Shown here one piece after another: positions 35,336 through 57,420 of a DNA stretch of 60,538 bases. The stretch's first letter is position 1; each line of letters starts with the position of its first letter. The stretch spans positions 1-60,538 of IMG/VR virus record IMGVR_UViG_3300021477_000007, one strand, 5' to 3'. A model generated the notes under the pieces. The model had not been told where the DNA came from and did no database searches. It was given only the letters and a program-made list of their open reading frames with translations. The translations under genes were made by a program, and so were the position numbers. The stretch comes from a virus.

Positions 35336-35394
35336 GGCGGGGGCCGGCCCGTTCTCGCACCCGCGAAGCCGAGTTCACGTACCCGGCCCCCGCC
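35336..35394 (-). terminator. 12-bp hairpin at the end of the RNA array
   Basis: On the minus strand GGCGGGGGCCGG pairs with CCGGCCCCCGCC around a loop of about 35 bases, immediately downstream of the four-module RNA array and upstream of the secreted-protein gene. There is no U-run; it may end or protect the non-coding transcript. Confidence 0.5.
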
Positions 35395-35416
35395 CCACCC
35401 TAGTAGGCAAGGCGAA

Positions 35417-35874
35417 GGCCCTGCGGGGTGCCGGTGAGCTATCAGGGTCCTCTGCAAGGGCCCCAGGATTCGAACCTGGGAAAGAAGGAAGCTCACCGAT
35501 GGCCGCAGGGCCAGTGCGGTATTCGTCAGGCGGGAAGCCGGGACTCTATTCTTTGGCAGCCGGGCTTCGCCCCCGAGGGGGCAGCCGCCGGCTAGAGCGA
35601 TAGAAGGAAGACTCCCGATGGCCGCCTGTTGAGTTGTCAGCGCGAGGAAGGCAAGCCAGCTATTTTCAAGGCCGGTGCTCTGCCGCTGAGCTACCAGGGG
35701 CTTTCGCCCCCGGGCGGGATTCGAACCCGCGGCCCCCGGCTCCGGTTTGAGGGAAGGAAGCTGGCCTATGGCCTCACGCTGTTTGAGTTGTGAAGTTAGG
35801 GGGCGAGGAAGGCGAGTCAGCTATTTTTCATCCGTATAAGGGGTGTAGAAGGAAGCTAACCCATGGCCTCGCCC
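35417..35874 (-). ncRNA. Array of four related structured RNA modules
   Basis: Four modules (35801-35874, 35640-35779, 35527-35628, 35417-35512) share one plan on the minus strand: an outer 7-10-bp helix (for example GGGCGAGG/CCTCGCCC; GGCCCTGCGG/CCGCAGGGCC), then CCAT, an inner 6-8-bp helix (GTTAGC/GCTGAC; GCCAGC/GCTGGC; GGTGAGCT/AGCTCACC), then TTCCTTC, a variable insert, ATAG and closure. The helices covary between copies, and wobble pairs are U.G only on the minus strand. Module 2 carries a permuted tRNA-like cloverleaf and module 4 a canonical T-arm. Linkers contain AACTCAAACAGCGTG and AACTCAACAG. I see no reading frame. Confidence 0.7.
35671..35740 (-). ncRNA. Permuted tRNA-like cloverleaf D (inside RNA module 2)
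   Basis: The order is GCCGG (3' anticodon strand), variable loop, T-arm GCGGG-TTCGAAT-CCCGC, acceptor CCGGGGG, a C-GAAA-G cap, acceptor CCCCTGG, TA, D-arm GCTC-AGCGGCA-GAGC, then CCGGC (5' anticodon strand). All four stems are perfect apart from one U.G. A GNRA tetraloop replaces the free acceptor end, so the molecule cannot be aminoacylated as encoded. Confidence 0.7.
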
Positions 35875-38160: not shown

Positions 38161-38195
38161 CTTGAGTCTAATGCACTTCCTTGACAAGAGTCAAG
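38161..38195 (-). promoter_or_regulatory. Promoter with palindromic operator upstream of the SCO0854-like gene
   Basis: On the minus strand CCTTGAC-TCTT-GTCAAGG forms a 7-bp palindrome (38178-38195) whose left half includes the -35 TTGACT. An 18-base spacer and TAGACT (-10) follow. Transcription would start about 40 bases ahead of the ATG at 38122. The palindrome overlapping -35 suggests repressor control. Confidence 0.6.
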
Positions 38196-38223: not shown

Positions 38224-38227
38224 AAGG

Positions 38228-38301
38228 CGGCCCTGGCTGGATTCGAACCAGCGGTACCTCGCTTAGGGGGCGAGTGCTCTGTCCGGCTGAGCTACAGGGT
38301 C
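38228..38301 (-). tRNA. tRNA-Arg(CCT)
   Basis: Cloverleaf with T-arm GCTGG-TTCGAAT-CCAGC and anticodon loop CCCCTAA. Position 33 is C instead of the near-universal U. One A.C mismatch in the acceptor stem; CCA is not encoded. Confidence 0.85.
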
Positions 38302-38302
38302 A

Positions 38303-38377
38303 TGGAGGCGGAACGGAGAATCGAACTCCGGTTGCGCGTTTTGCAGGCGCGCGCCTATGCCACTCGGCCATACCGCC
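38303..38377 (-). tRNA. tRNA-Cys(GCA)
   Basis: Acceptor GGCGGTA with TTCCGCC, loop CTGCAAA, T-loop TTCGATT; T73 followed by encoded CCA. Close in layout to actinobacterial tRNA-Cys. Confidence 0.88.
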
Positions 38378-38389
38378 ATTGAACTTGCG

Positions 38390-38463
38390 TGGTCTCAGAG
38401 GGACTCGAACCCCCGCCAACCCGCCTCCGGAGGGCGGTGCTCTGTCCACTGAGCTATGAGACC
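38390..38463 (-). tRNA. tRNA-Arg(CCG)
   Basis: Acceptor GGTCTCA/TGAGACC perfect; anticodon arm CCGCC-CTCCGGA-GGCGG; A73; no CCA encoded. Confidence 0.9.
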
Positions 38464-38464
38464 T

Positions 38465-38550
38465 TGGAGGCGCGTGCAGGATTCGAACCTGCGAAGGATC
38501 TACCGGCCGCTTTACAGGCGGCTGCCGTTGGCCACTTGAGCTAACGCGCC
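38465..38550 (-). tRNA. tRNA-Tyr(GTA)
   Basis: Long variable arm as in bacterial tRNA-Tyr; anticodon arm GCCGC-CTGTAAA-GCGGC; acceptor GGCGCGT/ACGCGCC; CCA encoded. Confidence 0.88.
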
Positions 38551-38553
38551 ATG

Positions 38554-38627
38554 GGGTAAGTAACGGGGCTCGAACCCGCCCGCCTGGGACCACAACCCAG
38601 TGCTCTGCCGTCTGAGCTATACCTACC
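38554..38627 (-). tRNA. tRNA-His(GTG)
   Basis: Anticodon arm CTGGG-TTGTGGT-CCCAG; C73 as expected for His. The extra 5' G(-1) is not encoded. T-loop TTCGAGC. Confidence 0.87.
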
Positions 38628-38633
38628 ACGAGA

Positions 38634-38996
38634 CTAATCCGGCAGAACGAGATTCAAGACCTCGAACGCTGCACGGATCTGCCCTTGCCGCCGAGAGCCC
38701 AGATGCGGGTACAGGACCCGCATAAGTGCCTCAGCGTCAGCTTTCCTGTTGACGAAAAACCGCCAGTACGGCTTCCGGTTCGACTGAGTGCGGGCGGTGT
38801 AGGGGCCTCCAACAGTCCCCACGCCTGACCACGCATGCAGCTTACGGATGACGTCCTCGTCGGTCATATTGCACTCGATGCGTAGCTGGACGTACTCCTT
38901 CTTGCGCCCACCGCAACCCGCCTTACGGCGGTTGATGCCGAAGTGACCCTCACCTTCGAGAACTCCGACCACCCACATCAACTTTGCGTTGTCCAT
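38634..38996 (-). CDS. LAGLIDADG-type homing endonuclease (single motif)
   Basis: The 120 residues carry one LAGLIDADG-like helix (LMWVVGVLEGEGHFGINRR), then beta-strands (YVQLRIECNMTDEDVIRKLH) and the family block YWRFFVNRKADAEALMRVLY followed by PHLGSRR. Single-motif enzymes act as homodimers. It is placed between tRNA-His and tRNA-Val, without visible intron features. It may cut a tRNA gene in competing phages. Confidence 0.85.
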   Translation of the reverse strand: MDNAKLMWVVGVLEGEGHFGINRRKAGCGGRKKEYVQLRIECNMTDEDVIRKLHAWSGVGTVGGPYTARTQSNRKPYWRFFVNRKADAEALMRVLYPHLGSRRQGQIRAAFEVLNLVLPD

Positions 38997-39009
38997 GTCA
39001 ACTACTACG

Positions 39010-39084
39010 TGGTCGATGAGGGATTCGAACCCCCGACAGCCCGCTGTGTGAAAGCGGCGCTCTACCAGGCTGAGCTAAACGACC
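39010..39084 (-). tRNA. tRNA-Val(CAC)
   Basis: Acceptor GGTCGTT/ATCGACC; anticodon arm CCGCT-TTCACAC-AGCGG; A73; no CCA encoded. Confidence 0.88.
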
Positions 39085-39095
39085 TCGTACTTGCG

Positions 39096-39168
39096 TGCCC
39101 CCCGGGAGACTCGAACTCCCACCCTCCCGGTTCGTAGCCGGACGCTCTATCCGTTGCGCTAGAGGGGC
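39096..39168 (-). tRNA. tRNA-Arg(ACG)
   Basis: Acceptor GCCCCTC/GGGGGGC with wobble; anticodon loop CTACGAA; T-arm GGGAG-TTCGAGT-CTCCC; A73. Confidence 0.88.
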
Positions 39169-39181
39169 ATTGGGTCTTGCG

Positions 39182-39253
39182 TGGGCGAGGCAGGGATCGA
39201 ACCTGCGGCCTCTTCCGTGTCGGGGAAACGCGCTTCCGCTGCGCTACACGCCC
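39182..39253 (-). tRNA. tRNA-Val(GAC)
   Basis: Acceptor GGGCGTG/CTCGCCC; anticodon loop CCGACAC with C33; T-arm GCAGG-TTCGATC-CCTGC; A73. Confidence 0.83.
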
Positions 39254-39260
39254 AAGTTTG

Positions 39261-39288
39261 TTGACGCCGGTCAAGCAACGGGTACCGT
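39261..39288 (+). promoter_or_regulatory. Plus-strand promoter for leaderless transcript
   Basis: TTGACG (39261-39266), a 16-base spacer and TACCGT (39283-39288). The predicted transcription start (7 bases on) coincides with the GTG at 39295, so the mRNA would be leaderless, as is common in actinomycetes. Confidence 0.6.
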
Positions 39289-39294
39289 TAGGTC

Positions 39295-39435
39295 GTGGGA
39301 TTTTTCATCGGCCTCGGCATCGGCCTCGCAGTCGGCGGCTTCTACGGCCTCAGGTGGGGCGGCGTCCGTGCCTTCTACCGACTCGGCCGGTACGAGCACA
39401 CTGAGCGCATGCGCCGCTCCGGGCTCGGCAACTGA
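39295..39435 (+). CDS. 46-residue membrane protein (plus strand, leaderless)
   Basis: From a GTG the frame reads MGFFIGLGIGLAVGGFYGLR (one glycine-zipper membrane helix), then WGGVRAFYRLGRYEHTERMR and a short basic tail. Plus-strand genes are rare in this genome. The TGA overlaps the next ATG (TGATG). It could be a small holin-like or toxin-like peptide; the function is unknown. Confidence 0.6.
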   Translation: MGFFIGLGIGLAVGGFYGLRWGGVRAFYRLGRYEHTERMRRSGLGN

Positions 39436-39596
39436 TGAAGCGGGGTTCGGCCTTCTTCATCATCGGCGCCGTCATCGGCCTTGGCGTCAGCGTCACGCTG
39501 GACGCAACCGGGCTGCACTGGCTGACCTGGCCTATTGCCGGACTGTTCGCACTAGCCGCCCTGGCCATCACCGTCACTATGCGTAAGCGCTCCTGA
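39435..39596 (+). CDS. 53-residue two-helix membrane protein (plus strand)
   Basis: It starts within the TGA of the preceding small gene and contains two membrane helices (SAFFIIGAVIGLGVSVTL; LTWPIAGLFALAALAITVTM) with a basic tail (RKRS). The last three codons overlap the 3' end of tRNA-Asp on the other strand. The hairpin topology is typical of small holins or toxin-like peptides. Confidence 0.6.
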   Translation: MKRGSAFFIIGAVIGLGVSVTLDATGLHWLTWPIAGLFALAALAITVTMRKRS

Positions 39597-39663
39597 CGGG
39601 ATTCGAACCCGCGATTTTCTGCTTGACGGGCAGACGGGGACGGCCTGACTCCCCTACAGGTGC
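39588..39663 (-). tRNA. tRNA-Asp(GTC)
   Basis: Acceptor GCACCTG/CAGGAGC (one mismatch); anticodon arm TCTGC-CCGTCAA-GCAGA with C33; G73. Confidence 0.83.
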
Positions 39664-39675
39664 ATGTGTACTGCG

Positions 39676-39748
39676 CTCCGGCAACTGGGATCGAACCAGT
39701 GCGCTTCCGCTTAACGGGCGGCTGCTCTGCCGTCTGAGCTATGCCGGA
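39676..39748 (-). tRNA. tRNA-Asn(GTT)
   Basis: Acceptor TCCGGCA/TGCCGGA perfect; anticodon loop CCGTTAA with C33; T-arm ACTGG-TTCGATC-CCAGT; G73. Confidence 0.87.
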
Positions 39749-39912
39749 TCGATTGGAGCCCCCGTCAGGCTACGTACCTGACACTCATCGCCCGCCACGC
39801 GGCGGGCGAGTCCCCTGCGCGGGAGGGGGCGCAGTTGCGGAGTATGAGTCCAGCGGGGACACCGAACTCCCCCACTCCGCATCGTGCCTCCAGGGTAACC
39901 CGGAGGTCTTCG
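39749..39912 (-). other. Structured non-coding gap between tRNAs
   Basis: No gene is seen. The minus strand folds into several stable hairpins: CCTCC..GGAGG, GCGGAGT..ACTCCGC enclosing GGGGGA-GTTCGGTG-TCCCC, GCCCGCC-GCGT-GGCGGGC, and TCAGG-TACGTAG-CCTGA next to GGGGGCTCCA. The last looks like a degenerate T-arm plus acceptor with CCA. It may be a decayed tRNA or a separate RNA. Confidence 0.4.
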
Positions 39913-39985
39913 CTCCCCCAACGGGATTCGAACCCGTGCTCTCGCCTTGAAAGGACGGCGACCTCGGCCGCTAGTCGATAGGGGC
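39913..39985 (-). tRNA. tRNA-Glu(TTC)
   Basis: The D- and T-arm sequences are very close to actinobacterial tRNA-Glu (ACGGG-TTCGAAT-CCCGT); loop CTTTCAA; position 1/72 is mismatched; G73. Confidence 0.87.
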
Positions 39986-39990
39986 TTGCG

Positions 39991-40065
39991 TGGTCCTGGC
40001 GGGCTTTGAACCCGCGTCACCGACTTGAGAGGCCGGCGTCCTGAGCCTGACTAGACGACAGGACC
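39991..40065 (-). tRNA. tRNA-Glu(CTC)
   Basis: Acceptor GGTCCTG/CAGGACC perfect; anticodon loop CTCTCAA; unusual T-loop TTCAAAG; A73. Confidence 0.87.
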
Positions 40066-40076
40066 GTGTTCTTGCG

Positions 40077-40149
40077 TGTACCAGGCGGGGATCGAACCCG
40101 CGGCCGACTGCTTAGAAGGCAGCTGCTCCTTCCGCTGAGCTACTGGCAC
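40077..40149 (-). tRNA. tRNA-Arg(TCT)
   Basis: Acceptor GTGCCAG/CTGGTAC; anticodon arm GCTGC-CTTCTAA-GCAGT; T-arm GCGGG-TTCGATC-CCCGC; A73. Confidence 0.88.
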
Positions 40150-40153
40150 CCGG

Positions 40154-40225
40154 TGCCTCCCGAAGGGGTCGAACCCTCATCCCATGGCTTAAAAGGCCCG
40201 GATGCTCCCGTTGCACCAGAGAGGC
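40154..40225 (-). tRNA. tRNA-Lys(TTT)
   Basis: Acceptor GCCTCTC/GGGAGGC; anticodon loop CTTTTAA on a weak stem with two mismatches; T-loop TTCGACC; A73. Confidence 0.8.
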
Positions 40226-40226
40226 T

Positions 40227-40305
40227 TGGTAGCGCGGGTGGGATTCGAACCCACGTACGGCAGGTTATGAGTCTGCTGCTTGAAACCTGACTCAGCTACC
40301 GCGCC
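40227..40305 (-). tRNA. tRNA-Met(CAT), elongator type (or Ile2)
   Basis: Acceptor GGCGCGG/CCGCGCT (G1.U72, so not an initiator); loop CTCATAA; long D-loop; A73 and CCA encoded. If C34 is modified to lysidine it would read AUA as Ile. Confidence 0.8.
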
Positions 40306-40306
40306 G

Positions 40307-40382
40307 TGGGTCCAGGTGGATTTGAACCACCGCGTCTTCCGGTTATCAGCCGGATGCCTTCACCAGACTTGGCCACAGACCC
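40307..40382 (-). tRNA. tRNA-Ile(GAT)
   Basis: Acceptor GGGTCTG/TGGACCC; anticodon arm TCCGG-CTGATAA-CCGGA; T-loop TTCAAAT; A73. Confidence 0.87.
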
Positions 40383-40521
40383 ATGTGACTCGACAGCAAC
40401 AAGTAACTGTGTGTATGCTGTCGAGTGCTCGTAGTAATGAAACTGCGTGCACCGTCGTTCGACGGCAGGCAGAGTTGAGGCGGTTCCTTCAGCGGCCCGA
40501 GGGGACCGCCTCAGTCATGCC
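40383..40521. other. Non-coding gap with inverted repeats
   Basis: CTCGACAGCA (40389-40398) and TGCTGTCGAG (40416-40425) form a perfect 10-bp inverted repeat with a 17-base loop. CCGTCG-TT-CGACGG and an 8-bp stem GAGGCGGT/ACCGCCTC follow. No convincing frame was found. It could be an operator, a small RNA or a recombination site. Confidence 0.5.
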
Positions 40522-40608
40522 TGGAGGAGACGGTGGGATTCGAACCCACGGGGCCGTAACCCGCTGGTTTTCGGGACCAGAGCCTTAATCCACTCGTGCC
40601 ACGTCTCC
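40522..40608 (-). tRNA. tRNA-Ser(CGA)
   Basis: Long variable arm; anticodon arm CTGGT-CCCGAAA-ACCAG with C33; acceptor GGAGACG/CGTCTCC; CCA encoded. Confidence 0.87.
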
Positions 40609-40612
40609 AGAG

Positions 40613-40698
40613 AGGAGCGAGCGGGATTCGAACCCGCGGAGGTGTTACCCCCGCCGCGCTAGCAACGCGGTGCCATAAGCCTCTCGTGCCATCGCTCC
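40613..40698 (-). tRNA. tRNA-Ser(GCT)
   Basis: Long variable arm; anticodon arm CCGCG-TTGCTAG-CGCGG; acceptor GGAGCGA/TCGCTCC; no CCA encoded. Confidence 0.88.
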
Positions 40699-40702
40699 AG
40701 AG

Positions 40703-40783
40703 TGGGCGGGGAGGGAGTCGAACCCTCACGTCCGAGGACACACGGGCCTGAACCGTGCGCGGCTGCCATTACGCCACTCGCCC
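40703..40783 (-). tRNA. tRNA-Leu(CAG)
   Basis: Long variable arm (TGTCCTCGGACG); loop TTCAGGC; acceptor GGGCGAG/CCCGCCC with one mismatch; A73. Confidence 0.87.
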
Positions 40784-40949
40784 TTGCTCCCCGGGCTGTT
40801 CTCCCTTTGCTGGGCCAGGCCCGGGGGGCTGGCAGGGAGCCAGGTCAGCGCTCTCGCGATGAGCTTCCCGGCCGGTGCACCGGCCAGTCTGCCTGGAGGT
40901 TGTCTGGGGTCCCCTCTTGGGCGCGTCCGCCCGCCAGTTCACCCCATAG
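40784..40949 (-). other. Structured non-coding gap
   Basis: No gene seen. Contains the perfect 16-base palindrome GGCCGGTGCACCGGCC (near 40868-40887) and other GC-rich stems (CCCGGG, TGGC..GCCA). Probably a processed spacer or unassigned RNA. Confidence 0.4.
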
Positions 40950-41021
40950 AGCCGACGACGGGATTCGAACCCGCGACCTTCACCTTGGCAAGGTGGCGTG
41001 CTACCGCTGCACTACGTCGAC
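40950..41021 (-). tRNA. tRNA-Gly(GCC)
   Basis: Acceptor GTCGACG/CGTCGGC; anticodon arm CCACC-TTGCCAA-GGTGA; T-arm GCGGG-TTCGAAT-CCCGT; T73. Confidence 0.88.
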
Positions 41022-41022
41022 A

Positions 41023-41099
41023 TGGAGCCGGCACGCGGGGTCGAACCGCGGGCCTCGCCCTTACCGAGGGCGCGCTCTAACCGCCTGAGCTATACCGGC
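41023..41099 (-). tRNA. tRNA-Thr(GGT)
   Basis: Acceptor GCCGGTA/TGCCGGC; anticodon arm CGCCC-TCGGTAA-GGGCG with C33; T73 and CCA encoded. Confidence 0.87.
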
Positions 41100-41100
41100 A

Positions 41101-41176
41101 TGGTTCCGGGGGCTGGGCTCGAACCAGCGTGCCCCGGCTTCAAGGGCCGGGCGGGATGCCGTCAACCCACCCCGGA
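41101..41176 (-). tRNA. tRNA-Gln(TTG)
   Basis: Acceptor TCCGGGG/CCCCGGA perfect; anticodon arm CCGGC-CCTTGAA-GCCGG with C33; A73 and CCA encoded. Confidence 0.86.
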
Positions 41177-41247
41177 TCGGGCACCGGACTTGAACCGATC
41201 ACCCGCTGCTTACAAGGCAGCCGCTCTGCCAGATGAGCTAGCCCGGC
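41176..41247 (-). tRNA. tRNA-Thr(TGT)
   Basis: Anticodon arm GCTGC-CTTGTAA-GCAGC; acceptor GCCGGGC with GCCCGAT (two weak pairs). Its 3' end touches the 5' end of tRNA-Gln(TTG), so 3'-end processing must be exact. Confidence 0.83.
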
Positions 41248-41251
41248 GAAG

Positions 41252-41336
41252 TGTCCGAGGCGGGACTTGAACCCGCAGCGCCCGTAGCGGGCACCAGCAC
41301 CTCAAGCTGGCGCGTCTGCCATTTCGCCACACGGAC
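41252..41336 (-). tRNA. tRNA-Leu(GAG)
   Basis: Long variable arm; anticodon arm CCAGC-TTGAGGT-GCTGG; acceptor GTCCGTG/CTCGGAC; A73. Confidence 0.87.
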
Positions 41337-41464
41337 AAGTAGGAAGACCCGGAGACCGGACCCTGACGCGCACCAGGGCGGCTGCCCTCGCTCCGCCTCC
41401 GTCACTGCCCTGCGCGGGACAGCTTCCAGCGGCGAGTCTCCTGGGGATGTCGCACGTTTTCCCG
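41337..41464 (-). other. Structured non-coding gap
   Basis: No gene seen. GC-rich, several potential stems (GGGCAG..CTGCCC type; GCGCAGGGCAGTGAC opposite GTGCGCGTCAGGG). Unassigned. Confidence 0.35.
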
Positions 41465-41537
41465 AGCCCCGAACCGGCATCGAACCGATGACCTCGCCAT
41501 TACGGGTGGCGCGCTCTGCCATCTGAGCTACCGGGGC
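41465..41537 (-). tRNA. tRNA-Thr(CGT)
   Basis: Acceptor GCCCCGG/TCGGGGC; anticodon arm CGCCA-CCCGTAA-TGGCG with C33; T73; no CCA. Confidence 0.87.
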
Positions 41538-41570
41538 ATAAGGCCGCCTGCGCAAGCGCTGACAGCCACG

Positions 41571-41646
41571 CTGCGGTACCTGGGATCGAACCAGGGTGAC
41601 TCCGGGTTCAGGGCCCGGCGAGTTTGCCAGCGTCCTCCATACCGCA
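41571..41646 (-). tRNA. tRNA-Gln(CTG)
   Basis: Acceptor TGCGGTA/TACCGCA perfect; anticodon arm CCGGG-CCCTGAA-CCCGG with C33; T-loop TTCGATC; G73. Confidence 0.87.
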
Positions 41647-41743
41647 TCGTTGCCGGGGCTCTTTGCTGGCCCCGGATTAACGGACCTGTTCCTCCCGCAG
41701 AGGGGACCGGGCAAGGATTCGCAGGACGGCCTTGCCAGCCGCG
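41647..41743 (-). other. Structured non-coding gap
   Basis: No gene seen. Two 7-bp hairpins on the minus strand: GGCAAGG..CCTTGCC and CCGGGGC..GCCCCGG. Unassigned. Confidence 0.4.
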
Positions 41744-41820
41744 TAGGCGAGGCGGGACTCGAACCCGCAGGAAGGCACGGATTTTGAGGCCGCCGCATAT
41801 ACCGGTTCTGCTACTCGCCC
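41744..41820 (-). tRNA. tRNA-Leu(CAA)
   Basis: Loop CTCAAAA; variable arm longer than class I; acceptor GGGCGAG/CTCGCCT; weak anticodon stem; A73. Reads UUG. Confidence 0.8.
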
Positions 41821-41902
41821 AAGAAGAGGAGGCGGGCCCGCTGACAGCAGGAGACCTGTACGTCGTTGTCAGCCACGGGCGCGGTCTCCGGACCGCCTCC
41901 AG
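41821..41902 (-). ncRNA. Closed two-hairpin RNA candidate between tRNAs
   Basis: On the minus strand an 8-bp helix GGAGGCGG/CCGCCTCC closes two hairpins: CGGTC-CGGA-GACCG, and GCCCG..GCTGACA paired with TGTCAGC..GGGC. The compact architecture nearly fills the space between tRNA-Lys(CTT) and tRNA-Leu(CAA). No T-arm is present. Confidence 0.45.
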
Positions 41903-41975
41903 TACGCCGCCCGGGACTCGAACCCGGAACCCCCTGATTAAGAGTCAGGTGCAGTGACCATTGTGCTAGCGACGC
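41903..41975 (-). tRNA. tRNA-Lys(CTT)
   Basis: Acceptor GCGTCGC/GCGGCGT; anticodon arm CCTGA-CTCTTAA-TCAGG; T-arm CCGGG-TTCGAGT-CCCGG; A73. Confidence 0.88.
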
Positions 41976-42077
41976 ATAACCAGGCTCGCGGGCTCAGTGT
42001 CAGCTGTCCCGCCCCGCCTGGCCGCGGTCTGACAACCGCTTGCGCGACCCGCGGATTAGCGGTCCGCGTCCGCACCG
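41976..42077 (-). other. Structured non-coding gap
   Basis: No gene seen. One hairpin, GCGGA-CCGCTAA-TCCGC, has a 5-bp stem and 7-base loop exactly like an anticodon arm with C33; two more hairpins follow (GCGGT-TGTCAG-ACCGC; GCGGG..CCCGC). Possibly a degenerate tRNA. Confidence 0.4.
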
Positions 42078-42149
42078 AGGGGATGACGGGAATCGAACCC
42101 GCATCTGCTGATTGGAAGTCAGTCATCCTTGCCGTTGGACGACATCCCC
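42078..42149 (-). tRNA. tRNA-Gly(TCC)
   Basis: Acceptor GGGGATG/CATCCCC perfect; loop CTTCCAA; T-arm GCGGG-TTCGATT-CCCGT; T73. Confidence 0.87.
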
Positions 42150-42353
42150 ATGTCCCGAGGCCCCGCCGGTCCAGAGCAAGGTACGACCCGCTTGCAGCAG
42201 GTCTCCCAGGGTGCCGGCGACGTTATGAGGTGCCTCGGGCGGCGCGAAGTCCGGCCCATTGCAATGGGCCGGCTTACCCGGAGGAGCGCTACTCTCCGGG
42301 CCGTATCCCCCCGGGTAGCCTATGGCTGGGCAGCCGGGCGGGGCGTCGTGCCG
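42150..42353 (-). ncRNA. Structured RNA candidate in 204-base gap
   Basis: No gene is seen. On the minus strand CCCGAGGC pairs with GCCTCGGG, enclosing GCCGG/CCGGC and a 44-base apical part. Separate stable hairpins are an 11-bp perfect palindrome in CCGGCCCATTG and its complement, and CCCGGAG..CTCCGGG. The nested closing helices recall the modules at 35.4-35.9 kb, but the conserved loops are absent. Confidence 0.4.
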
Positions 42354-42429
42354 TGGTGGCTGCGGAGGCGATCGAATCCTCGACCTGTCCCTTTTCAGGG
42401 GACCGCTCTCCCAACTGAGCTACACAGCC
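42354..42429 (-). tRNA. tRNA-Phe(GAA)
   Basis: Acceptor GGCTGTG/CGCAGCC; anticodon arm GTCCC-CTGAAAA-GGGAC; A73 and CCA encoded. Confidence 0.87.
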
Positions 42430-42440
42430 ATGAACTTACG

Positions 42441-42512
42441 TCGGGACACAGGGACTCGGACCCCGTCTGCCTGCTCCCAAAACAGGCGCGCTAACCCTTA
42501 CGCGATATCCCG
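42441..42512 (-). tRNA. tRNA-Pro(TGG)
   Basis: Acceptor CGGGATA/TGTCCCG with the Pro-specific C1-G72; loop TTTGGGA; T-loop reads TCCGAGT instead of TTC; A73. Confidence 0.82.
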
Positions 42513-42520
42513 TTGTTTCC

Positions 42521-42595
42521 GCAGGTGTCTTAACCAGGCCTAGACGATCCCGCCCCAACCGGGACAGGGGCGGGACTTGAACCCGCTTCTCCTGC
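42521..42595 (-). ncRNA. Permuted tRNA-like cloverleaf C
   Basis: Order on the minus strand: GCAGG, T-arm GCGGG-TTCAAGT-CCCGC, acceptor CCCTGTCCC, loop GGTT, acceptor GGGGCGGG, A-TC, D-arm GTCT..AGAC, A, CCTGC. Anticodon-stem strands GCAGG/CCTGC, T-stem and D-stem pair perfectly; the acceptor helix has one bulged U. Its 5' end directly follows the CCA of tRNA-Pro(CGG), so tRNA processing would release it. Confidence 0.65.
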
Positions 42596-42674
42596 TGGTC
42601 GGGGTGGTGAGATTCGAACTCACGACCTCTGCGTCCCGAACGCAGCGCGCTCGACCAAGCTGCGCTACACCCCG
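42596..42674 (-). tRNA. tRNA-Pro(CGG)
   Basis: Acceptor CGGGGTG/CACCCCG with C1-G72; anticodon arm CTGCG-TTCGGGA-CGCAG; A73 and CCA encoded. Confidence 0.88.
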
Positions 42675-42676
42675 AA

Positions 42677-42747
42677 ACCCGGCGCTCTTCCGTTGAGCTA
42701 CCTGGCCCACGAGTGGACCCGGCAGGAGTCGAACCTGATCTACCGGT
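42677..42747 (-). ncRNA. Permuted tRNA-like cloverleaf B
   Basis: Order: ACCGG, T-arm CAGG-TTCGACT-CCTG, acceptor CCGGGTCCA, loop CTCG, acceptor TGGGCCAGG, TA, D-arm GCTC-AACGGAA-GAGC, G, CCGGGT. The acceptor helix pairs with one G.A mismatch and extends two pairs beyond normal to a tetraloop. Lies between tRNA-Ala(CGC) and tRNA-Pro(CGG), nearly abutting both. It is less perfect than the other three. Confidence 0.55.
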
Positions 42748-42748
42748 G

Positions 42749-42822
42749 TGGAGAAGATCGGATTTGAACCGACGACACCCCGGTTGCGGGCCGGGTGCTC
42801 TTCCGGGCTGAGCTACATCCCC
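42749..42822 (-). tRNA. tRNA-Ala(CGC)
   Basis: Acceptor GGGGATG/CTTCTCC with mismatches; anticodon arm CCCGG-CCCGCAA-CCGGG with C33; T-arm GTCGG-TTCAAAT-CCGAT; A73. Confidence 0.8.
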
Positions 42823-42827
42823 ATGTT

Positions 42828-42905
42828 CAGGAAAGGTGTCCTGCCGTTAAACGAGCCGGGCGGATAAGCCCGGCCTCCCGAGTCGAACGGGAGACCCATT
42901 TCCTG
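42828..42905 (-). ncRNA. Permuted tRNA-like cloverleaf A
   Basis: Order: CAGGAAATGG, T-arm TCTCCCG-TTCGACT-CGGGAGG region, acceptor GCCGGGC, loop TTATCC, acceptor GCCCGGC, TC, D-arm GTTT-AACGGCA-GGAC, A, CCTTTCCTG. The acceptor helix is 7 perfect pairs; the anticodon-side helix is 9 pairs with one bulged U. It starts two bases after tRNA-Ala(GGC) and ends six bases before tRNA-Ala(CGC). Confidence 0.65.
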
Positions 42906-42907
42906 CG

Positions 42908-42980
42908 TGGAGCCTGCGGGACTTGAACCCGCGACCTTTTGCATGCCATGCAAACGCGCTTCCAGCTGCGCCAAGGCCCC
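42908..42980 (-). tRNA. tRNA-Ala(GGC)
   Basis: Acceptor GGGGCCT/AGGCTCC; anticodon arm TTTGC-ATGGCAT-GCAAA; T-arm GCGGG-TTCAAGT-CCCGC; A73. Confidence 0.87.
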
Positions 42981-43281
42981 GTGGAGGCCGGCCCCTTGCC
43001 CGGTGTGAACAGGCGGAAGGCCGGCCATCGCCCCCGTGGCCCTGGCAGAAGCACTCCGCACCAGGGCGTCAGGGAGTCTAGCTGGCACAGTGCCCGGTAC
43101 AGGAACGTCTTGCGACGCCCCCAGCCTTTAACGGCTGCTGCTCCCCGGGAGTAGCTGCATTGTCTTTCACCGTGCCGAAAACTCGCGGCGGGTTGGCGCC
43201 CGCCGCACGATGCTCACGCTGTGGAGTTCTCAAGATTCATTGACTTGCGCCGCCGTTGGCTTTCGCCGCGGGCGGCGGTCG
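42981..43281 (-). promoter_or_regulatory. rrn-like leader region of the tRNA operon (boxA-like)
   Basis: The 300-base gap holds no gene. On the minus strand a GC-rich hairpin (43249-43280) is followed by AATCTTGAGAACTCCACAGC (43216-43235), then GTGAGCATCG and a second hairpin GCGGCGGG/CCCGCCGC (43185-43206). TTGAGAACTC with CAGCGTG downstream is the conserved boxA-containing leader seen before actinobacterial rRNA genes, where Nus factors load for antitermination. Here it would help transcription through the highly structured tRNA array. Confidence 0.6.
43208..43224 (-). repeat. 17-bp inverted repeat copy flanking tRNA cluster (right)
   Basis: CCACAGCGTGAGCATCG on the minus strand, identical to the plus-strand copy at 38207-38223; part of the rrn-like leader. 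Confidence 0.75.
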
Positions 43282-43356
43282 CAGGGGAGGAGGGATTCGA
43301 ACCCGCGCTGGCGTGGTTTTGGAGACCACCGCTCTGACCTTCTGAGCTACACCCCT
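43282..43356 (-). tRNA. tRNA-Trp(CCA)
   Basis: Acceptor AGGGGTG/CTCCCCT (one mismatch); anticodon arm GTGGT-CTCCAAA-ACCAC; G73. First tRNA of the cluster in the direction of transcription, lying ahead of the boxA-like leader. Confidence 0.87.
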
Positions 43357-43545: not shown

Positions 43546-43638
43546 GGTCCTCACGGTAGCGGAGCGGGCCTTCCCGCGCCAGTTCTTTGCGCCCCCGGAG
43601 GGGCCATGTCTCCAAGGTACTACCCTGCTTGACTGGTG

Positions 43639-43920
43639 TCAAGCTAAATCCAGGGGGATTTCTGGCTGGGTAAAGAAGCTGGTCACAGCCCCGCTGGCCA
43701 CCCCGCTACGGTCGGCGTCCACCGCCCGGCGCACGGCCGGGTGCATGGACGCGCGGATCTCGACCGGGCTCAGCCGCACCAGCCTGGCGGCCACCATCGC
43801 GTCGGCCAGGCGCTCGGGGAAGGTCCCGGCGCGCGCAGCCAGGTGACCCATGTCCTCCTGGAGGTCTTCCTCGGTGAGGCTGGCCGCGTACTCAACCAGG
43901 ACCTCGAACGGGACGCTCAC
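43639..43920 (-). CDS. Small helical protein downstream of terminase, unknown
   Basis: The 93 residues start at the GTG 43920 with GGAG ahead. Content is helical (EVLVEYAASLTEEDLQEDMG; ERLADAMVAARLVRLSPVEI). The short form was chosen because the longer frame (to 43989) lacks a ribosome-binding site. No family is recognised. Confidence 0.55.
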   Translation of the reverse strand: MSVPFEVLVEYAASLTEEDLQEDMGHLAARAGTFPERLADAMVAARLVRLSPVEIRASMHPAVRRAVDADRSGVASGAVTSFFTQPEIPLDLA

Positions 43921-44062: not shown

Positions 44063-46030
44063 TTACTGTGTGTAGTCCCCGCTCATCGTGCCCCAGTCGT
44101 CCAGGTAGCTGCTGCCGTACTCCATGCCGGGGCGGTCGGGGGGCATGAACTGGTCGGGGCCGAGCGCCGACATGCCGGCCGGCATCCCCGCCGGAAGGGG
44201 AATCTCGGCGGCCGGGCCGTAGAACGAGATCTGGCCGGGGTAGGCCCGCTTGCCGGCCGGGTCCTCCATGCCGCCGATGCTCAGCGCGCCGACCACCGCG
44301 CCGGCGAGGCTGTCGGCCTCGTCCTTGGAGGAGTCTCCCAGGTGGTCGATCTTCCCGTTGGGCAAACGGGACAGGCCGAGCAGCTCGATGACGGTCAGCT
44401 CGCGGGCGGGCATCTCCAGGCGGCCCTCGTACATGACGTCGCGCAGCGTCCTCCAGCCCTCCTCAGAGACATCTGTAGAAAACCTGTCCGTCTCAATGCC
44501 GTGGCTTTCGAGTATTTGCATACTATCTTTCGATTGCCATTGATCAAATGAGAAGAACGTCACCGGGAAGCCCATCCGGCGCAGCTCCAGGCACAGCATG
44601 CGCGCCCAGCGGATCTGGATCTCCATCGGGGGCCGCGCGCCGGCGTCAGCCTCGTAGCTGATGGTGAAGTCGACCTTGACGACCGGGCGGCGCTCCTGCA
44701 CCTTGATCTCCAGGCCGTCCTCGTCGTTGCCGGTCAGCGCGTGGTCCTGCCAGCGCTTGACGTGCGCCATGGTAATGCCGGCGCGGTCGCCGGTAGCCGC
44801 CAGGTCGGCGTGCATGGCGTAGAGCGCGCCCTTGACCGGGTAGCACTCGGGGCTGAAGGTGTAGACCGGCTTCCAGGACGCGCCCTCGCGGATGTAGCTC
44901 ACCGCCAGGGGCGGCTGGGCGTACTCGGTCAGGCACTCGCGGATGGCTTCCTCGTTGGCGAAGTACGGGTTGATCGCCCGGCGGGGCTTGCACTCGTACT
45001 TGGCCTCGGCCAGCGCCGGGTCCTTCTCGTAGTCCTCGGCGAACGCCTCCTTACCGGAGATGCGCGGGTTGGCCTCCCAGGTGGCCAGCGGGCCGGACAC
45101 GTAGTACCGGCTCTTCTCGCCGCGTGCCTCGTTGTCCGCCTTGCCCCTGGCGACCAGCTGCTGGATGGTGCTGCCCAGGTAGCGCGGGTAGGAGATGTGG
45201 ACGTTCTTAAAGCACTCGGGGAACCGGGTGGTGGCCGAGGTCCGGATCATGTCGAGGATGGCCTCGGCGCTGCTGCTCGACTCACGCTGCTTGGCGGAGG
45301 AGTTACGGGCCAGCTCGGCCGCGGACCGGAACGCGTCGATCTCGTCGGCGATGCCGAGGATGAGGTTGAGGCCCTCCTGGCTGTCGGCGTCGGAGTGACC
45401 GGAGACGGCCTCGATGTTGTGCTCGAACCGGATGGTGTCCAGCAGGGTGACAGTGCGCTCCCCGCGGGCGCTGCGCTGCTGACGGGCGGAGGCGTCCAGG
45501 ATGTCGATGCCGGCGTTGCGCTGGAACCAGCAGCCCGACCGCTGCACGGCGCGGCGCATCGGGGCGAAGAACGCGCGCTGGGCTTGCTTCGACGATGATG
45601 CGACATTCAGGACGTGGATCGAGTCCTGTTCGGGCATCTGGTAGTAATCCTGCGGGGACTTCAGGCACAGCAACAGGTAGCAGACCCGCATGGCGATCAT
45701 CCGGCAGGTGTGGTCCTTGCCCCCGCCCTTGCCCCACTCCAGCTCCAGGAAGTTGACCATGCGGCACGGCGCCGACCAGTAGTCGCGCACCTTCTTGTCC
45801 GCGCTGGCCGCCAGCAGCTCGTAGGTCGGCAGGTAGAAGACACGCTCGGCGTGCCGCACCGCCTCGTACTGCACGTCTGACAGCGGCGGGTTGGCCAGGT
45901 AGGCCCGGTCCCGCACGAACACGTCAAGCGGGACCGGCTCCTCCTCGAAGATGCCAGTCCCGCTCGCCGACGTCCCCGTGCCGCCGGACCGCCCAAGCAG
46001 GGCCGCGGCGGCTGCGCCAGCAGTGGCCAC
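44063..46030 (-). CDS. Terminase large subunit
   Basis: The protein has 655 residues from a GTG. The ATPase half has a deviant Walker A (WGKGGGKDHT, residues 99-108) and a Walker B-like LNLILGIADEIDAF. The nuclease half has YAMHADLAATGDRAG, with the first catalytic Asp, and a late acidic motif (DSSKDEADSLAGAVVGAL). It packages DNA through the portal using ATP and cuts concatemers. It is separated from the portal by the tRNA and RNA-array region, which is unusual since these genes are normally adjacent. Confidence 0.88.
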   Translation of the reverse strand: MATAGAAAAALLGRSGGTGTSASGTGIFEEEPVPLDVFVRDRAYLANPPLSDVQYEAVRHAERVFYLPTYELLAASADKKVRDYWSAPCRMVNFLELEWGKGGGKDHTCRMIAMRVCYLLLCLKSPQDYYQMPEQDSIHVLNVASSSKQAQRAFFAPMRRAVQRSGCWFQRNAGIDILDASARQQRSARGERTVTLLDTIRFEHNIEAVSGHSDADSQEGLNLILGIADEIDAFRSAAELARNSSAKQRESSSSAEAILDMIRTSATTRFPECFKNVHISYPRYLGSTIQQLVARGKADNEARGEKSRYYVSGPLATWEANPRISGKEAFAEDYEKDPALAEAKYECKPRRAINPYFANEEAIRECLTEYAQPPLAVSYIREGASWKPVYTFSPECYPVKGALYAMHADLAATGDRAGITMAHVKRWQDHALTGNDEDGLEIKVQERRPVVKVDFTISYEADAGARPPMEIQIRWARMLCLELRRMGFPVTFFSFDQWQSKDSMQILESHGIETDRFSTDVSEEGWRTLRDVMYEGRLEMPARELTVIELLGLSRLPNGKIDHLGDSSKDEADSLAGAVVGALSIGGMEDPAGKRAYPGQISFYGPAAEIPLPAGMPAGMSALGPDQFMPPDRPGMEYGSSYLDDWGTMSGDYTQ

Positions 46031-53981: not shown

Positions 53982-54217
53982 TCGGGTCTCCTCATGCTGA
54001 TGGTGGTCGCGATAACCGGGGGGCCGGGCTCCGGCCCGGTCACGGGCAGGCCCGCCGCGCAGAACGCGCCCGAGCTGAGCTTGCGGTGGCCGAACTCGCC
54101 GCCGCACTCCGGGCAGGCGAGGTACGTGACGTCGCCGTCCTGCTCAGGCTCAGCGGGGCCGCCGCAGTAGATGCAGTCGGCGCCCTCTTCGACCAGCGGC
54201 TCAGGCGGGCTGCTCAA
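53978..54217 (-). CDS. Small zinc-ribbon protein (TTG start likely)
   Basis: The 79 residues contain two CxxC pairs (DCIYCGGPAE and YLACPECGGEFG) and a final Cys (GAFCAAGLPV). The start was chosen at the TTG overlapping the radical-SAM stop region, because upstream ATGs would place it deep inside that gene. It is probably a structural zinc protein; the function is unknown. Confidence 0.5.
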   Translation of the reverse strand: MSSPPEPLVEEGADCIYCGGPAEPEQDGDVTYLACPECGGEFGHRKLSSGAFCAAGLPVTGPEPGPPVIATTISMRRPE

Positions 54218-57200
54218 CGGGCTCCAGGACCTCCGGGGCGGGCTCTTCGGCATAGCCGTCGCCCGCCCAGTTCTCGTCAGGCGCGGTGTCCGGGCTGGTG
54301 CCGAAGGACTGGCCGTACTGATGCGTCTTGCCGAATCCGGGACTTTCCACAGGTTCCTCCACAAGGTGTGCGGCTACCTGTAATACGCCGGAGCCCGCGA
54401 GCGCCGCAATGACCTTCCCTTCGGCCTCGTCGCCACAGCGCGGGCAGAACCTCATCCCCCAGGGCGCGTCCAGCAGAGTGGAGGGGACCGGCAGGCCGCA
54501 CCCCTCGCACGGCTGGCCGCCGCCGTGGAAGAACTCCAGCCGACGGGCGGTGTAGCGCGCGGCCTCGACCGGGCTGGCCTTGCCGGCGAGCGCGGCGTAG
54601 GCCTGGTAGGGACCGAGGCGGCCCTTGAGCAGCATGCGCAGCACGGTCCGCTGCCCCTCGCGGGCCAGCCAGAGGTCGCGGACGTGCTCGCGGGCGTCGC
54701 CCTCCTCGGCGGTCGCCCCGGCGTAGAAGCTCTCCGCGCGAATCAGCACCGGCACTGCCTCTGCCTCGTCCCACCACCGCAGCCGCCGGGCCAGGGCCGC
54801 GGGGTCGTCAGCTACCTCCAGCTCCCACAGGCCGGTCGGGCGCGCGGGGAACTTCCCCGCGGCCGGGAGCACAGCGAAGTTCCCGCCCCAGCGCAGGTAC
54901 GGGTACAGGTGCACCGCCATCTTGATGAGGTAGTCGCCGATGTCGAGGCCGTCGGCGACGCGGGTCAGGCCGAACTCGGCGTAGTCCACCCCGGCGCTGC
55001 GCTCGCGGTAGCCGGTGCCCGAGGACGCCAGCCTCACCGACTCCACGGCCAGGTCGGGGAACGGCGGCCGGCCGGACCTGCTCATCCGCCCGGCGATGTC
55101 AGCCCGTGCCCGGTAGGCGGCCCGGCGGATGATGTACTCCAGCGACGTGCCGGAAACGAACCGGTACTCATCCGGGCGCTCCACCTTCATCCGGACGCGC
55201 TGCGCGACGGTGGACTGGTCGAGCGGGCGCACCGGCTCAGCGACCAGGTCGCGGTCGACGGCCTGCACGTACCTGCGGCGCAACTCCAGGTCCTTCCGGT
55301 CGCACACCCCGCAAGCGGTCCCGCTGCACTGCTGGTCGCAGCGCGGCACCCACTCATTGCCGTGATATCCCTCGGGGATATCACTGTCGTAGCCCTCGGC
55401 GGTGGTCCCCTCCAGGAACTCCACCATGTCCCGGTACACCCGCCACAGCAGGGACCGCGGCACGCCGGTGTCGATCATCTCCCAGCCGAGCAGGTCCTCG
55501 TAGAACCGCTCGCCGAAGATGTCGTCCAGCCCGTTGCGGAACCCGTGAACTTTCATCGCCTCATCGAGCTTTTCCCGCATGTCCTTCGGGAAGCCGCCCC
55601 ACGACGCGGTGCCGTAAGCCTCGATGACGTCCACGACGGCCTCGCCGACGTCCCGGCTCGCCCGCTGGCACGCTTGGAAGAACGCCAGCTTCGGCGGGGA
55701 GGCCTTGCTGCCGATCTTGATCCAGATCCGGTGATCGCGAAGTTCGCCGAGCGCCTGCTGCAGCATGTAGTCCGGCGGGGTGACCTCGAACCACTGCAGC
55801 GGAGTCTGCGCCTCGATGAGCAGCGGGGTCCAGGAGAAGATGATCTGCACCCCGGCCGCGGCCTCGCCGAACCCGTTGCGGATGTCGGCCAGCCGGCGGC
55901 CCAGCTCCACGACCCTCATCACGTCGGCTTGCTCCTCACCGGGCCAGTTGGTGATGAAGTAGAGCTTGATCTTCCTGATGCCCGCGCGGATCGCCCGGGT
56001 GACCGCCTCGGCCACGTCGTCGTCACTGGTGCCCTTGCCGGCCAGGTCGCGCATCCGCTGGCTGTTGCCCTCCAGGCCGAGAGTGAGCGACGTCGTGCCG
56101 GAGACTTGCAGCAGCAGGGCGAAGCCGGGGTCGGCGAGGTAGTCATCGATCCGCATCGAAGAGGCGTCCACCCGGCCGGCGACGTTCTCCAGCAACCCGG
56201 CGATCAATGCCTTCTTTCGCGTGTGCATGGGCGGGTCCGGGGCGACCAGGCTGATGTCGGTCGAGCCCATATTGTCCCGCCACGCCTTGGCCCGCTCCAC
56301 TGAGCGGCCTGTGCCCTCCTGCCGGTAAGGCTTGGTCACCCACGAGAGCCTGCAGAAGCTGCACCAGGCCGGGCAGCCGCGCGCTACCTCAACGTCCCCC
56401 GAGCCCATGCCGGGATCGGAGAACAGCACCGGCGCGCTGGTCATCAGGCTGGCCTTGTTCAGGTCAGCGACGCGCCGGGCCTTGAAGATCGGGCCGATGC
56501 CCTCAGCCAGACTCCGGTAACCGGACACCATCTTGGTCAGCTCGGGCAACCCGCGGTCCTCGTACTTGTAAGCGACCTCAGTGAAACGCGGGAAGTACAG
56601 GAAGGGAAACTCCCTGGCCAGCATCTGGTAACACCACAGCCGGTCATTCTGCCAGGACCGCGGGCCATTGCTCTTGAACTGCGCGATGCGCTCACAGACT
56701 GCGGAGATGCCGGGGTTGCCCTCCTCGTCCTCGGCCTCTCCCAGCCACACGGCATCGACCACCGGGGCCATGAACTCGGGCGCGCAGTACGCCTGGCCGC
56801 CAACCAGCACCATCGGGTAGTCCTCGGCGCGCAGCGTCCGGTCGGCCCAGCGCAGCGGGATACCGCTCATGGAGAGGGTCTTGCAGAAGTTCATGAAAAG
56901 AACTGTGTACGAGATAGACGTGCCCACCACGTCGAAGTCGCTCAGCTGGTGCCTGCTCTCGATGCCGAACGCCGGCACCTGGCCGCGCTCCAGCAGGTCC
57001 ATGTCACGCGGGGTGGCGGGCAGGTAAAAACGGTCAGCGAGCGTGTAAACCCCGGCCTTGTGCAGCGCGTCGTACACAGCGGGGATCGCCATGTTGCCGG
57101 CCGCCTGACTGTAGGGCCAGCTCGCGACGAGCAGCCAGCGCACCTGGGCGGCACCCCACGGGCGGCGGGCGGCGTTGGGCTCGGTGCCCAAGAACTGCTG

Positions 57201-57269
57201 CGGTCCGTCAAAGCGGAACAGGTTTCCGTCTAGCCACCGGGCAATCGACTCAGGACTGCGGCCTGTCAT
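54201..57269 (-). CDS. Large radical-SAM protein (B12-binding-like N-terminus)
   Basis: The 1,022 residues start at the ATG 57269 preceded by GGAGGAGG. The N-terminal 290 residues have a Rossmann-like region (VRWLLVASWPYSQAAGNMAI, then LVGGQAYCAPEFMAPVVDAV) as in cobalamin-binding radical-SAM enzymes. The cluster motif is GCPAWCSFC (Cys299, 303, 306), followed by the TIM-barrel motif RIDDYLADPGFALLLQVSGT. Two further Cys sets (CDQQCSGTACGVCDR; CEGCGLPVP with CPRCGD) may bind more clusters or zinc. Related proteins are uncharacterised; a nucleic-acid or peptide modification role is possible. Confidence 0.8.
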   Translation of the reverse strand: MTGRSPESIARWLDGNLFRFDGPQQFLGTEPNAARRPWGAAQVRWLLVASWPYSQAAGNMAIPAVYDALHKAGVYTLADRFYLPATPRDMDLLERGQVPAFGIESRHQLSDFDVVGTSISYTVLFMNFCKTLSMSGIPLRWADRTLRAEDYPMVLVGGQAYCAPEFMAPVVDAVWLGEAEDEEGNPGISAVCERIAQFKSNGPRSWQNDRLWCYQMLAREFPFLYFPRFTEVAYKYEDRGLPELTKMVSGYRSLAEGIGPIFKARRVADLNKASLMTSAPVLFSDPGMGSGDVEVARGCPAWCSFCRLSWVTKPYRQEGTGRSVERAKAWRDNMGSTDISLVAPDPPMHTRKKALIAGLLENVAGRVDASSMRIDDYLADPGFALLLQVSGTTSLTLGLEGNSQRMRDLAGKGTSDDDVAEAVTRAIRAGIRKIKLYFITNWPGEEQADVMRVVELGRRLADIRNGFGEAAAGVQIIFSWTPLLIEAQTPLQWFEVTPPDYMLQQALGELRDHRIWIKIGSKASPPKLAFFQACQRASRDVGEAVVDVIEAYGTASWGGFPKDMREKLDEAMKVHGFRNGLDDIFGERFYEDLLGWEMIDTGVPRSLLWRVYRDMVEFLEGTTAEGYDSDIPEGYHGNEWVPRCDQQCSGTACGVCDRKDLELRRRYVQAVDRDLVAEPVRPLDQSTVAQRVRMKVERPDEYRFVSGTSLEYIIRRAAYRARADIAGRMSRSGRPPFPDLAVESVRLASSGTGYRERSAGVDYAEFGLTRVADGLDIGDYLIKMAVHLYPYLRWGGNFAVLPAAGKFPARPTGLWELEVADDPAALARRLRWWDEAEAVPVLIRAESFYAGATAEEGDAREHVRDLWLAREGQRTVLRMLLKGRLGPYQAYAALAGKASPVEAARYTARRLEFFHGGGQPCEGCGLPVPSTLLDAPWGMRFCPRCGDEAEGKVIAALAGSGVLQVAAHLVEEPVESPGFGKTHQYGQSFGTSPDTAPDENWAGDGYAEEPAPEVLEPVEQPA

Positions 57270-57420
57270 CGGGCCTCCTCCGGAGGTGTACCACCGGGCG
57301 CGTGCCCTCTTCGGCCTCACGCCGGACACGGCGGGCCAGCTCCTCGGGAACCGGGACCCTCGCCACCCTGCGGTACCGGGTAGCTGCCCGGTGCTCGCGG
57401 AACCTCCACCAGCGCCTCAT
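57250..57420 (-). CDS. 56-residue Arg-rich protein overlapping the radical-SAM start
   Basis: The frame begins MRRWWRFREHRAATRYRRVA and continues RVPVPEELARRVRREAEEGT. It starts inside the TGA of the ATPase gene (ATGA) and runs 20 bases past the radical-SAM ATG in another frame. The second half resembles a ribbon-helix-helix start (RVPVPEELARRVRREAEEG). It could be a DNA-binding peptide. Confidence 0.5.
   Translation of the reverse strand: MRRWWRFREHRAATRYRRVARVPVPEELARRVRREAEEGTRPVVHLRRRPDDRPQS

Follow-up and report, generated by a model that had tools for sequence, protein, structure and literature searches.

The tRNA-like domain of the bacterial Y RNA YrlA binds PNPase, and in two-piece permuted tmRNA the acceptor is permuted around an intervening loop. 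The passages on YrlA in one source describe this domain as resembling the D, T and acceptor arms of tRNA (PMC8394870), and a section of a study on RNA superposition has Y RNA superposing on tRNA by circular permutation (PMC11472068). Part of a third source mentions phage Y RNAs for mycobacteriophages (PMC12282133). The permuted tRNA genes of algae and archaea mature, as part of a further source sets out, via a circular intermediate and with the help of a splicing endonuclease that acts at a BHB motif (PMC3978253).

Here, we describe permuted tRNA-like units in the tRNA arrays of a phage and its relatives. The DNA under study, called the window throughout, is the whole 60,538-nucleotide stretch of IMG/VR record IMGVR_UViG_3300021477_000007; it is a phage fragment with a terminase at 44063-46030 and 35 tRNAs at 38226-43356, every one of them on the minus strand (ARAGORN). 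The units share their shape with the tRNA-like module of YrlA, a bacterial Y RNA (Rfam RF02553): we take them to be Y-RNA tRNA mimics and not a new kind of tRNA, and their stem-less form inside the array differs from the form that is known. In the literature, which we covered incompletely, we found no account of Y-RNA modules that lack the stem and lie in tRNA arrays.

Anatomy of the permuted units

Read along the minus strand, the order of elements is Ala-GGC, A, Ala-CGC, B, Pro-CGG, C, Pro-TGG, as established from the sequence and the ARAGORN tRNA calls (Table 1). Inside units A, B and C, the 3′ half comes first, then an acceptor hairpin, then the 5′ half; this is the half order of a permuted tRNA gene. 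An initial annotation of this DNA had placed three permuted cloverleaves with canonical arms between these tRNAs. All three units are present, as are the helices it gave for A and the end strands it gave for C (GCAGG/CCTGC), but "canonical" is too strong a word for B, which has 4 of 5 T-stem pairs and 6 of 7 acceptor pairs. The D-stem of A has only about 3 bp. The acceptor hairpin of A is GCCGGGC-TTATCC-GCCCGGC (7 bp with a TTATCC loop), its T-arm is TCCCG/CGGGA, and its end helix pairs CAGGAAA(T)GG with CCTTTCCTG over 9 bp with one bulge. Unit C has an 8-bp acceptor capped by GGTT. This anatomy agrees with the annotation's description of tRNA-shaped molecules opened at the anticodon and closed at the acceptor. 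At gathering thresholds, Rfam reported only tRNAs in the window.

Table 1. Permuted units, neighboring tRNAs and related features of the window
Feature	Position	Strand	Location or remark	Basis
Unit A, permuted tRNA-like module	42828..42905	-	tRNA-Ala(GGC)/tRNA-Ala(CGC) gap	scanner score 57 for core 42832-42900
Unit B, weaker permuted module	42677..42747	-	tRNA-Ala(CGC)/tRNA-Pro(CGG) gap	scanner score 46
Unit C, permuted module	42521..42595	-	tRNA-Pro(CGG)/tRNA-Pro(TGG) gap	scanner score 61
tRNA-Ala(GGC)	42907..42980	-	upstream neighbor of unit A	ARAGORN
tRNA-Ala(CGC)	42748..42822	-	units A and B on either side	ARAGORN
tRNA-Pro(CGG)	42596..42674	-	units B and C on either side	ARAGORN
tRNA-Pro(TGG)	42440..42512	-	downstream of unit C	ARAGORN
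Unit D, perfect permuted module	35671..35740	-	outside the tRNA array	scanner score 78 (top score)
Unit D with predicted basal stem	35638..35781	-	35759-35768 with 35652-35661; beyond a small internal loop, 35772-35781 with 35638-35647	
Second, degenerate 3′-half/5′-half fragment	35390..35488	-	beside unit D	scanner score 50
TTGACACCAGTCAA, putative promoter motif	43629..43642	-	ahead of the tRNA array	motif scan

The annotation's count of three overlooked a fourth unit, D, which is perfect and lies outside the array. Its arms have 5+5+7+4 bp, its acceptor is capped by a GAAA tetraloop, and the lowest-energy fold of D alone is the exact permuted cloverleaf. When the flanks of D are folded along with it, its T, acceptor and D arms persist, a long basal stem forms (10 + 10 bp as predicted), and the anticodon stem is re-paired.

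The palindromic motif TTGAC-N4-GTCAA has further copies in the window at 39261-39274 and 38181-38194, besides the one listed in Table 1. Of the relatives with an array, L002-L007 and L041 were scanned (L042, L047 and L048 were not among them), and all seven have a copy that precedes it. Because it precedes the array in the window and in all seven of these relatives, it is probably a phage promoter, the copies serving as promoters or operators. A sister of unit C in record G002 lies outside the array, about 76 kb from it, and its end helix is found 26 nt behind a TTGAC-N4-GTCAA copy of its own. If the motif is a promoter, the G002 RNA would begin near the 3′ half, making the permuted order the real gene order; mechanical reading frames overlap the sister locus and leave this argument less firm.

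Recurrence and covariation

A permuted-cloverleaf scanner, which recovered 204 of 211 ordinary tRNAs that had been permuted artificially (median score 70), was applied to seven phages: the window and six relatives, L002-L007, which share 86-93% terminase identity with it. L001, whose 6100-base array does not differ from the window's, was left out; L008 carries no tRNA. Counts refer to the 123 array gaps of 40-900 bases in these phages, with a score of 57 as the threshold for a unit. Junctions of ordinary tandem tRNAs also fit the permuted shape, reaching up to 47 bits with a covariance model, R1, trained only on the window's phage group; thus, only places overlapping no called tRNA were counted. 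The gaps hold 12 units scoring at least 57, and five of the seven arrays have at least one. The remaining 148,517 bases of the seven phages yielded a single such unit, which is D. On the reverse strands of the same gaps there were none, nor were there any in 300 dinucleotide-shuffled sets, in which the highest score was 55. The arrays of L006, L007 and L048 had no unit at this threshold.

Units recur in the same gaps. The Ala/Ala gap holds one in the window, L002, L003, L004 and L005; a Pro/Pro gap in the window, L003, L004 and L005 (where it is Pro(GGG)/Pro(TGG)); and the gap behind Gln(CTG) in L002, L003 and L005. A full 5+5+7+4 unit also occupies the Pro(CGG)/Pro(TGG) gap of L041, L042 and L047, a more distant group whose members are alike among themselves and whose terminase is 74% identical to the window's. 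Unit B falls below the threshold and clusters in BLAST with the stronger Ala/Ala unit of L002 (13315-13384). BLAST also groups L003, L004 and L005 by their Ala/Ala units, and L003 with L005 both by their Pro/Pro units and by the gaps that follow Gln(CTG). Not every unit resembles its gap-mates in sequence, however: A and C formed no BLAST cluster with theirs. Records have at most four units, the weak B included. The initial annotation had named intact tRNAs made from the same halves as the finding that would speak against its proposal; at these places, the related arrays have permuted units and no such tRNAs.

Placement within the arrays is regular. All 14 in-array units, among them unit B and the L041 unit, begin within 1-7 nt of the tRNA that precedes them, and for 10 of them another tRNA follows after 2-9 nt. 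The four without a close downstream tRNA comprise the L003 Ala/Ala unit and three that follow Gln(CTG).

In an alignment of the 12 units with loops equalised, 90.7% of the cells were paired vs. 73.0% after shuffling, and 0 of 500 shuffles reached any of five measures; the scanner picks for pairing and so biases pair counts upward, which makes the dinucleotide shuffles the stricter control. Changes on both sides were seen in 15 of the 21 pairs. Unaided, RNAalifold recovered the T, acceptor and D arms and missed the anticodon stem, which is gap-shifted in several rows. When acceptor or anticodon strands were swapped among 14 units, the observed pairing was reached in 0 of 20000 draws for each helix. 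The cloverleaf is the lowest-energy fold in 3 of 15 stretches (both of those from L002 and the L005 Pro/Pro unit), and units A, B and C are not among them.

In a hand-chosen set of 17 short-loop acceptors, homologous pairs included, 8 are closed by a GNRA or UNCG tetraloop. Between L003 and L005, a single base of 73 distinguishes the Pro/Pro units, and this difference turns a UCCG acceptor cap into a UUCG cap. For all 15 units compared, the tRNA closest to the 5′ half is not the one closest to the 3′ half (alignment scores 0.62-0.83 per base). Loop size ranges from 3 to 74 nt in the scanner's output, and the junctions, inspected by eye, have no common or conserved anticodon and mostly lack U33. 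From these data, we conclude that the units are real, that they recur and that they bear signs of selection. The presence of similar units in related phages suggests a working tRNA look-alike rather than debris.

Kinship to Y RNAs and to the modules of Ro60 phages

The initial annotation cited permuted tRNA genes from algae and archaea and not from phages; in bacteria and phages the shape is already known, from the tRNA-like part of bacterial Y RNAs. The units have the circularly permuted tRNA-like module of YrlA, and for D the YrlA model itself finds it, with a match at 35650-35748 from the first to the last model position. None of the four reaches the YrlA gathering score of 69 bits (D, 37.9; A, 11.4; B, 20.8; C, 13.4). 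Several array units of L002, L003, L004 and L005 score 29.7-33.9 bits, in a range where ordinary tandem tRNA junctions can reach about 31 bits (L007). Searched over whole records at E values up to 1, RF02553 also lists tandem tRNA junctions and has matches in 13 of 14 control genomes. The R1 scores of A, B and C (41, 40 and 45 bits) are inside the tandem-junction range, even though A and C belong to the training set. For the whole-record search with R1 in six group records, at most 150 of 180-232 first-look candidates were scored and the L004 Ala/Ala unit was recovered in part, so that the units it gave there are a minimum.

R1 was calibrated on nine named tRNA-rich phages, with E values up to 1e-9 and places overlapping no tRNA. 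The TROVE (Ro60) domain is encoded by eight of the nine, and six of these eight have R1 modules: Magritte, ScoobyDoobyDoo, Gilson, Samisti12, A3Wally and Myrna. At the same E value, none was found in Daubenski or Atu_ph07, both of which have TROVE; Mimi, the phage without it, has two. Several modules are near the Ro60 gene. Those of Magritte and ScoobyDoobyDoo lie 566 and 87 bases before a Ro-like gene, the nearer of two in Gilson lies 689 bases before the TROVE-domain gene, and the distances in Samisti12 and A3Wally are 5.5 kb and 2.6 kb. The Myrna module (36 bits) is far from the TROVE gene; this phage, which has Ro60, also has a weaker stem-less unit (score 54), which a spacer of 3 nt separates from tRNA-Asp on one side and from tRNA-Met on the other. 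In the GenBank phage tables examined, no annotated feature lies over the R1 modules.

Five of eight R1 modules are matched by YrlA, with 28.8-40.8 bits (six loci, in Magritte, ScoobyDoobyDoo, A3Wally, Samisti12, Gilson and Mimi), and three have no match at E 0.05 (that of Magritte, Mimi's first and Gilson's second). Like the units of the window, the modules of the Ro60 phages and Mimi are below the YrlA gathering score. Unit D and these units of the relatives score in the range of the Ro60 phages, and A-C score lower; the shape is Y-RNA-like, and D probably shares its ancestry with Y-RNA modules, which is less sure for A-C.

With YrlA, the units share a permuted T-arm, a closed acceptor, a D-arm and an exit via the anticodon stem, and D has a predicted long basal stem as well. 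They differ in their sub-threshold scores, in their number of up to four per record, in that no Ro60 gene was found in the group, and in the Ro-binding part: the 1-7 nt between an in-array unit and the preceding tRNA cannot accommodate the upstream strand of a stem for Ro60. The modules of the Ro60 phages are close enough to be found by the model of the window's group, and Samisti12 and Gilson each have one 33-38 nt behind a tRNA; however, these phages encode Ro60, and a spacing of 33-38 nt fits a basal stem.

A separate observation concerns Magritte (L088 4529-4663; 76028-76162 in Microbacterium phage Magritte). A tRNA-Arg(tct) is annotated there immediately before the Ro-like gene; a 36.6-bit YrlA match overlaps it, and it may be part of a second Y RNA.

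Ro60 and RNA-joining enzymes

Among 14 records from the group and its terminase relatives, some of them from near-identical phages and several of them fragments, none had TROVE. A phage Ro60 query likewise matched 0 of 10 group records and both control phages. With no Ro60 found in the group, the usual partner of a Y RNA is missing, unless the host supplies one. Searches for RNA-joining enzymes gave no RtcB in nine group records and no PF09414 RNA ligase in ten, the latter family being matched in two control phages; a PF09511 search in which no control matched was uninformative. Pfam identified no Ro60 or RNA-repair gene among 18 window proteins.

What the units might do

Are these units tRNA genes in pieces, or do they serve in the permuted form? 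The first possibility would have the ends ligated in the anticodon loop and the acceptor loop cut by RNase P and RNase Z, giving a working tRNA as in red algae and some archaea. The halves and their order are right for this, as is the loop between them. When the gaps were circularised artificially, ARAGORN called a tRNA in 6 of 123, all six of them unit-bearing (three calls need a 30-58-base intron); on linear gaps, it called 1 of 123, which is not one of those six. Exact cuts at the flanking tRNAs would also leave several units with anticodon-side loops of about 6-8 nt, by eye. However, circularisation of the window's own gaps gave a tRNA in 0 of 14, no anticodon is shared and U33 is mostly absent, and neither the PF09414 ligase (10 of 10 records) nor RtcB (9 of 9) was found in the phage records. 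Moreover, algal and archaeal permuted genes mature to tRNAs, whereas many of the acceptors here have stable tetraloop caps that look built for staying shut. On the grounds of the circularisation result, the negative ligase search in the phage records and the stable caps, we rejected working permuted tRNAs as the main reading and consider them very unlikely. The annotation stated that no bacterial splicing route would close the units; no closing is needed, since Y RNAs work in permuted form. The units resemble two-piece permuted tmRNA, in which the acceptor is also permuted around an intervening loop, but no mRNA-like part was noticed in them.

That the units are remnants of tandem tRNA duplicates whose outer halves have decayed, the duller alternative offered by the annotation, is highly improbable. 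Junctions of tandem tRNAs do resemble the units, and so might the degenerate fragment beside D, the weakness of B and the imperfect likeness of some same-gap units be read. Decay does not account for acceptor and end helices that covary, for recurrence in the same gaps of phages whose terminases are 86-93% and 74% identical, for halves whose closest tRNAs differ in 15 of 15 units, or for units outside the array; the covariation, the recurrence and the outside units led us to reject it. It is quite unlikely, too, that the units are spacers or processing aids, stable folds that steer 3′ end processing of the preceding tRNA and block exonucleases. The 1-7 nt spacing in 14 of 14 in-array units suits such a role, and other gaps hold conserved structured RNAs, that between Leu(CAA) and Gln(CTG) in 7 of 7 phages being an example; a spacer, though, need not keep T-loop, D-loop and elbow residues, and neither D nor the G002 sister of unit C is in the array at all. 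Several authors hold that phage tRNA sets counter tRNA-cutting defences, and the units could, as the annotation suggested, be decoys for anticodon nucleases or sensors of cleaved tRNA, resembling as they do a tRNA already cut in its anticodon loop. The geometry fits, and there is an analogy in the proposal, in the part of Hughes et al. 2020 that concerns it, that YrlA, itself uncut by an anticodon nuclease, may be its competitive inhibitor (PMC7790460). A specific nuclease, however, would meet no conserved sequence in the anticodon loop, and loop size varies from 3 to 74 nt; we regard this reading as unlikely.

The reading that we prefer, with about as much doubt as confidence, is that the units are tRNA mimics of the YrlA kind, mostly effector modules without a Ro stem, which would be freed by tRNA processing and would occupy a host RNA-handling enzyme. 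The RNA would be a circularly permuted cloverleaf whose acceptor hairpin is covalently closed and whose chain begins and ends at the anticodon stem. Most units of the group would be bare modules, devoid of a Ro60-binding stem and directly behind tRNAs. Processing of the flanking tRNAs could release them, by RNase Z or 3′ exonucleases upstream and RNase P downstream. Where the next tRNA is close, the product would be a compact and presumably stable RNA of about 70-140 nt. Such an RNA would not be expected to decode; acting as a decoy, the look-alike might instead occupy a host protein that reads the tRNA elbow or the Y-RNA module. PNPase would be the first candidate target, followed by tRNA-targeting nucleases.

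A bolder form of this proposal, possible in our view though doubtful, is a Ro-independent branch of Y RNAs. Here, the module would have been freed of its Ro60 stem, multiplied and lodged between tRNA genes, where ordinary tRNA processing would produce it, supplying sponge RNAs that shield the tRNAs or transcripts of the phage against RNA decay in the host or against defences that cut tRNA.

The gaps of phage tRNA arrays are easily taken as empty; some hold recurring, covarying tRNA mimics, which ARAGORN and default Rfam thresholds miss. They raise the question: do phages that carry many tRNA genes produce look-alikes of tRNA as well? A natural, separable effector module of Y RNA would allow the module's role to be asked about without Ro60, and the R1 model flags unannotated modules near Ro60 genes in the GenBank phage records examined.

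Other features of the arrays and the window

Additional RNAs appear in the array gaps. Long acceptor loops at L003 9590-9643 and in the Ala/Ala gaps of L004 and L005 are structured and have a common motif like AGTACGCNTAGCGGAAAGCC, for which tRNA was the only family among the Rfam matches listed at gathering thresholds. Another repeated gap RNA, with stretches like GGTGGTCGGCCGAAGCA, occurs at L004 13479-13772 and 14062-14178 and at L005 13965-14083; these three gaps cluster. The tRNA-Leu(CAA)/tRNA-Gln(CTG) gap (41647-41742 on the minus strand of the window) measures 96-103 nt in 7 of 7 phages, is BLAST-clustered in all seven and has several predicted hairpins. It is probably an undescribed structured RNA. 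Away from the array, 54201-57329 of the window encodes a 1042-aa protein with radical SAM domains, whose neighbors match the DNA polymerase III clamp-loader and beta-clamp families.
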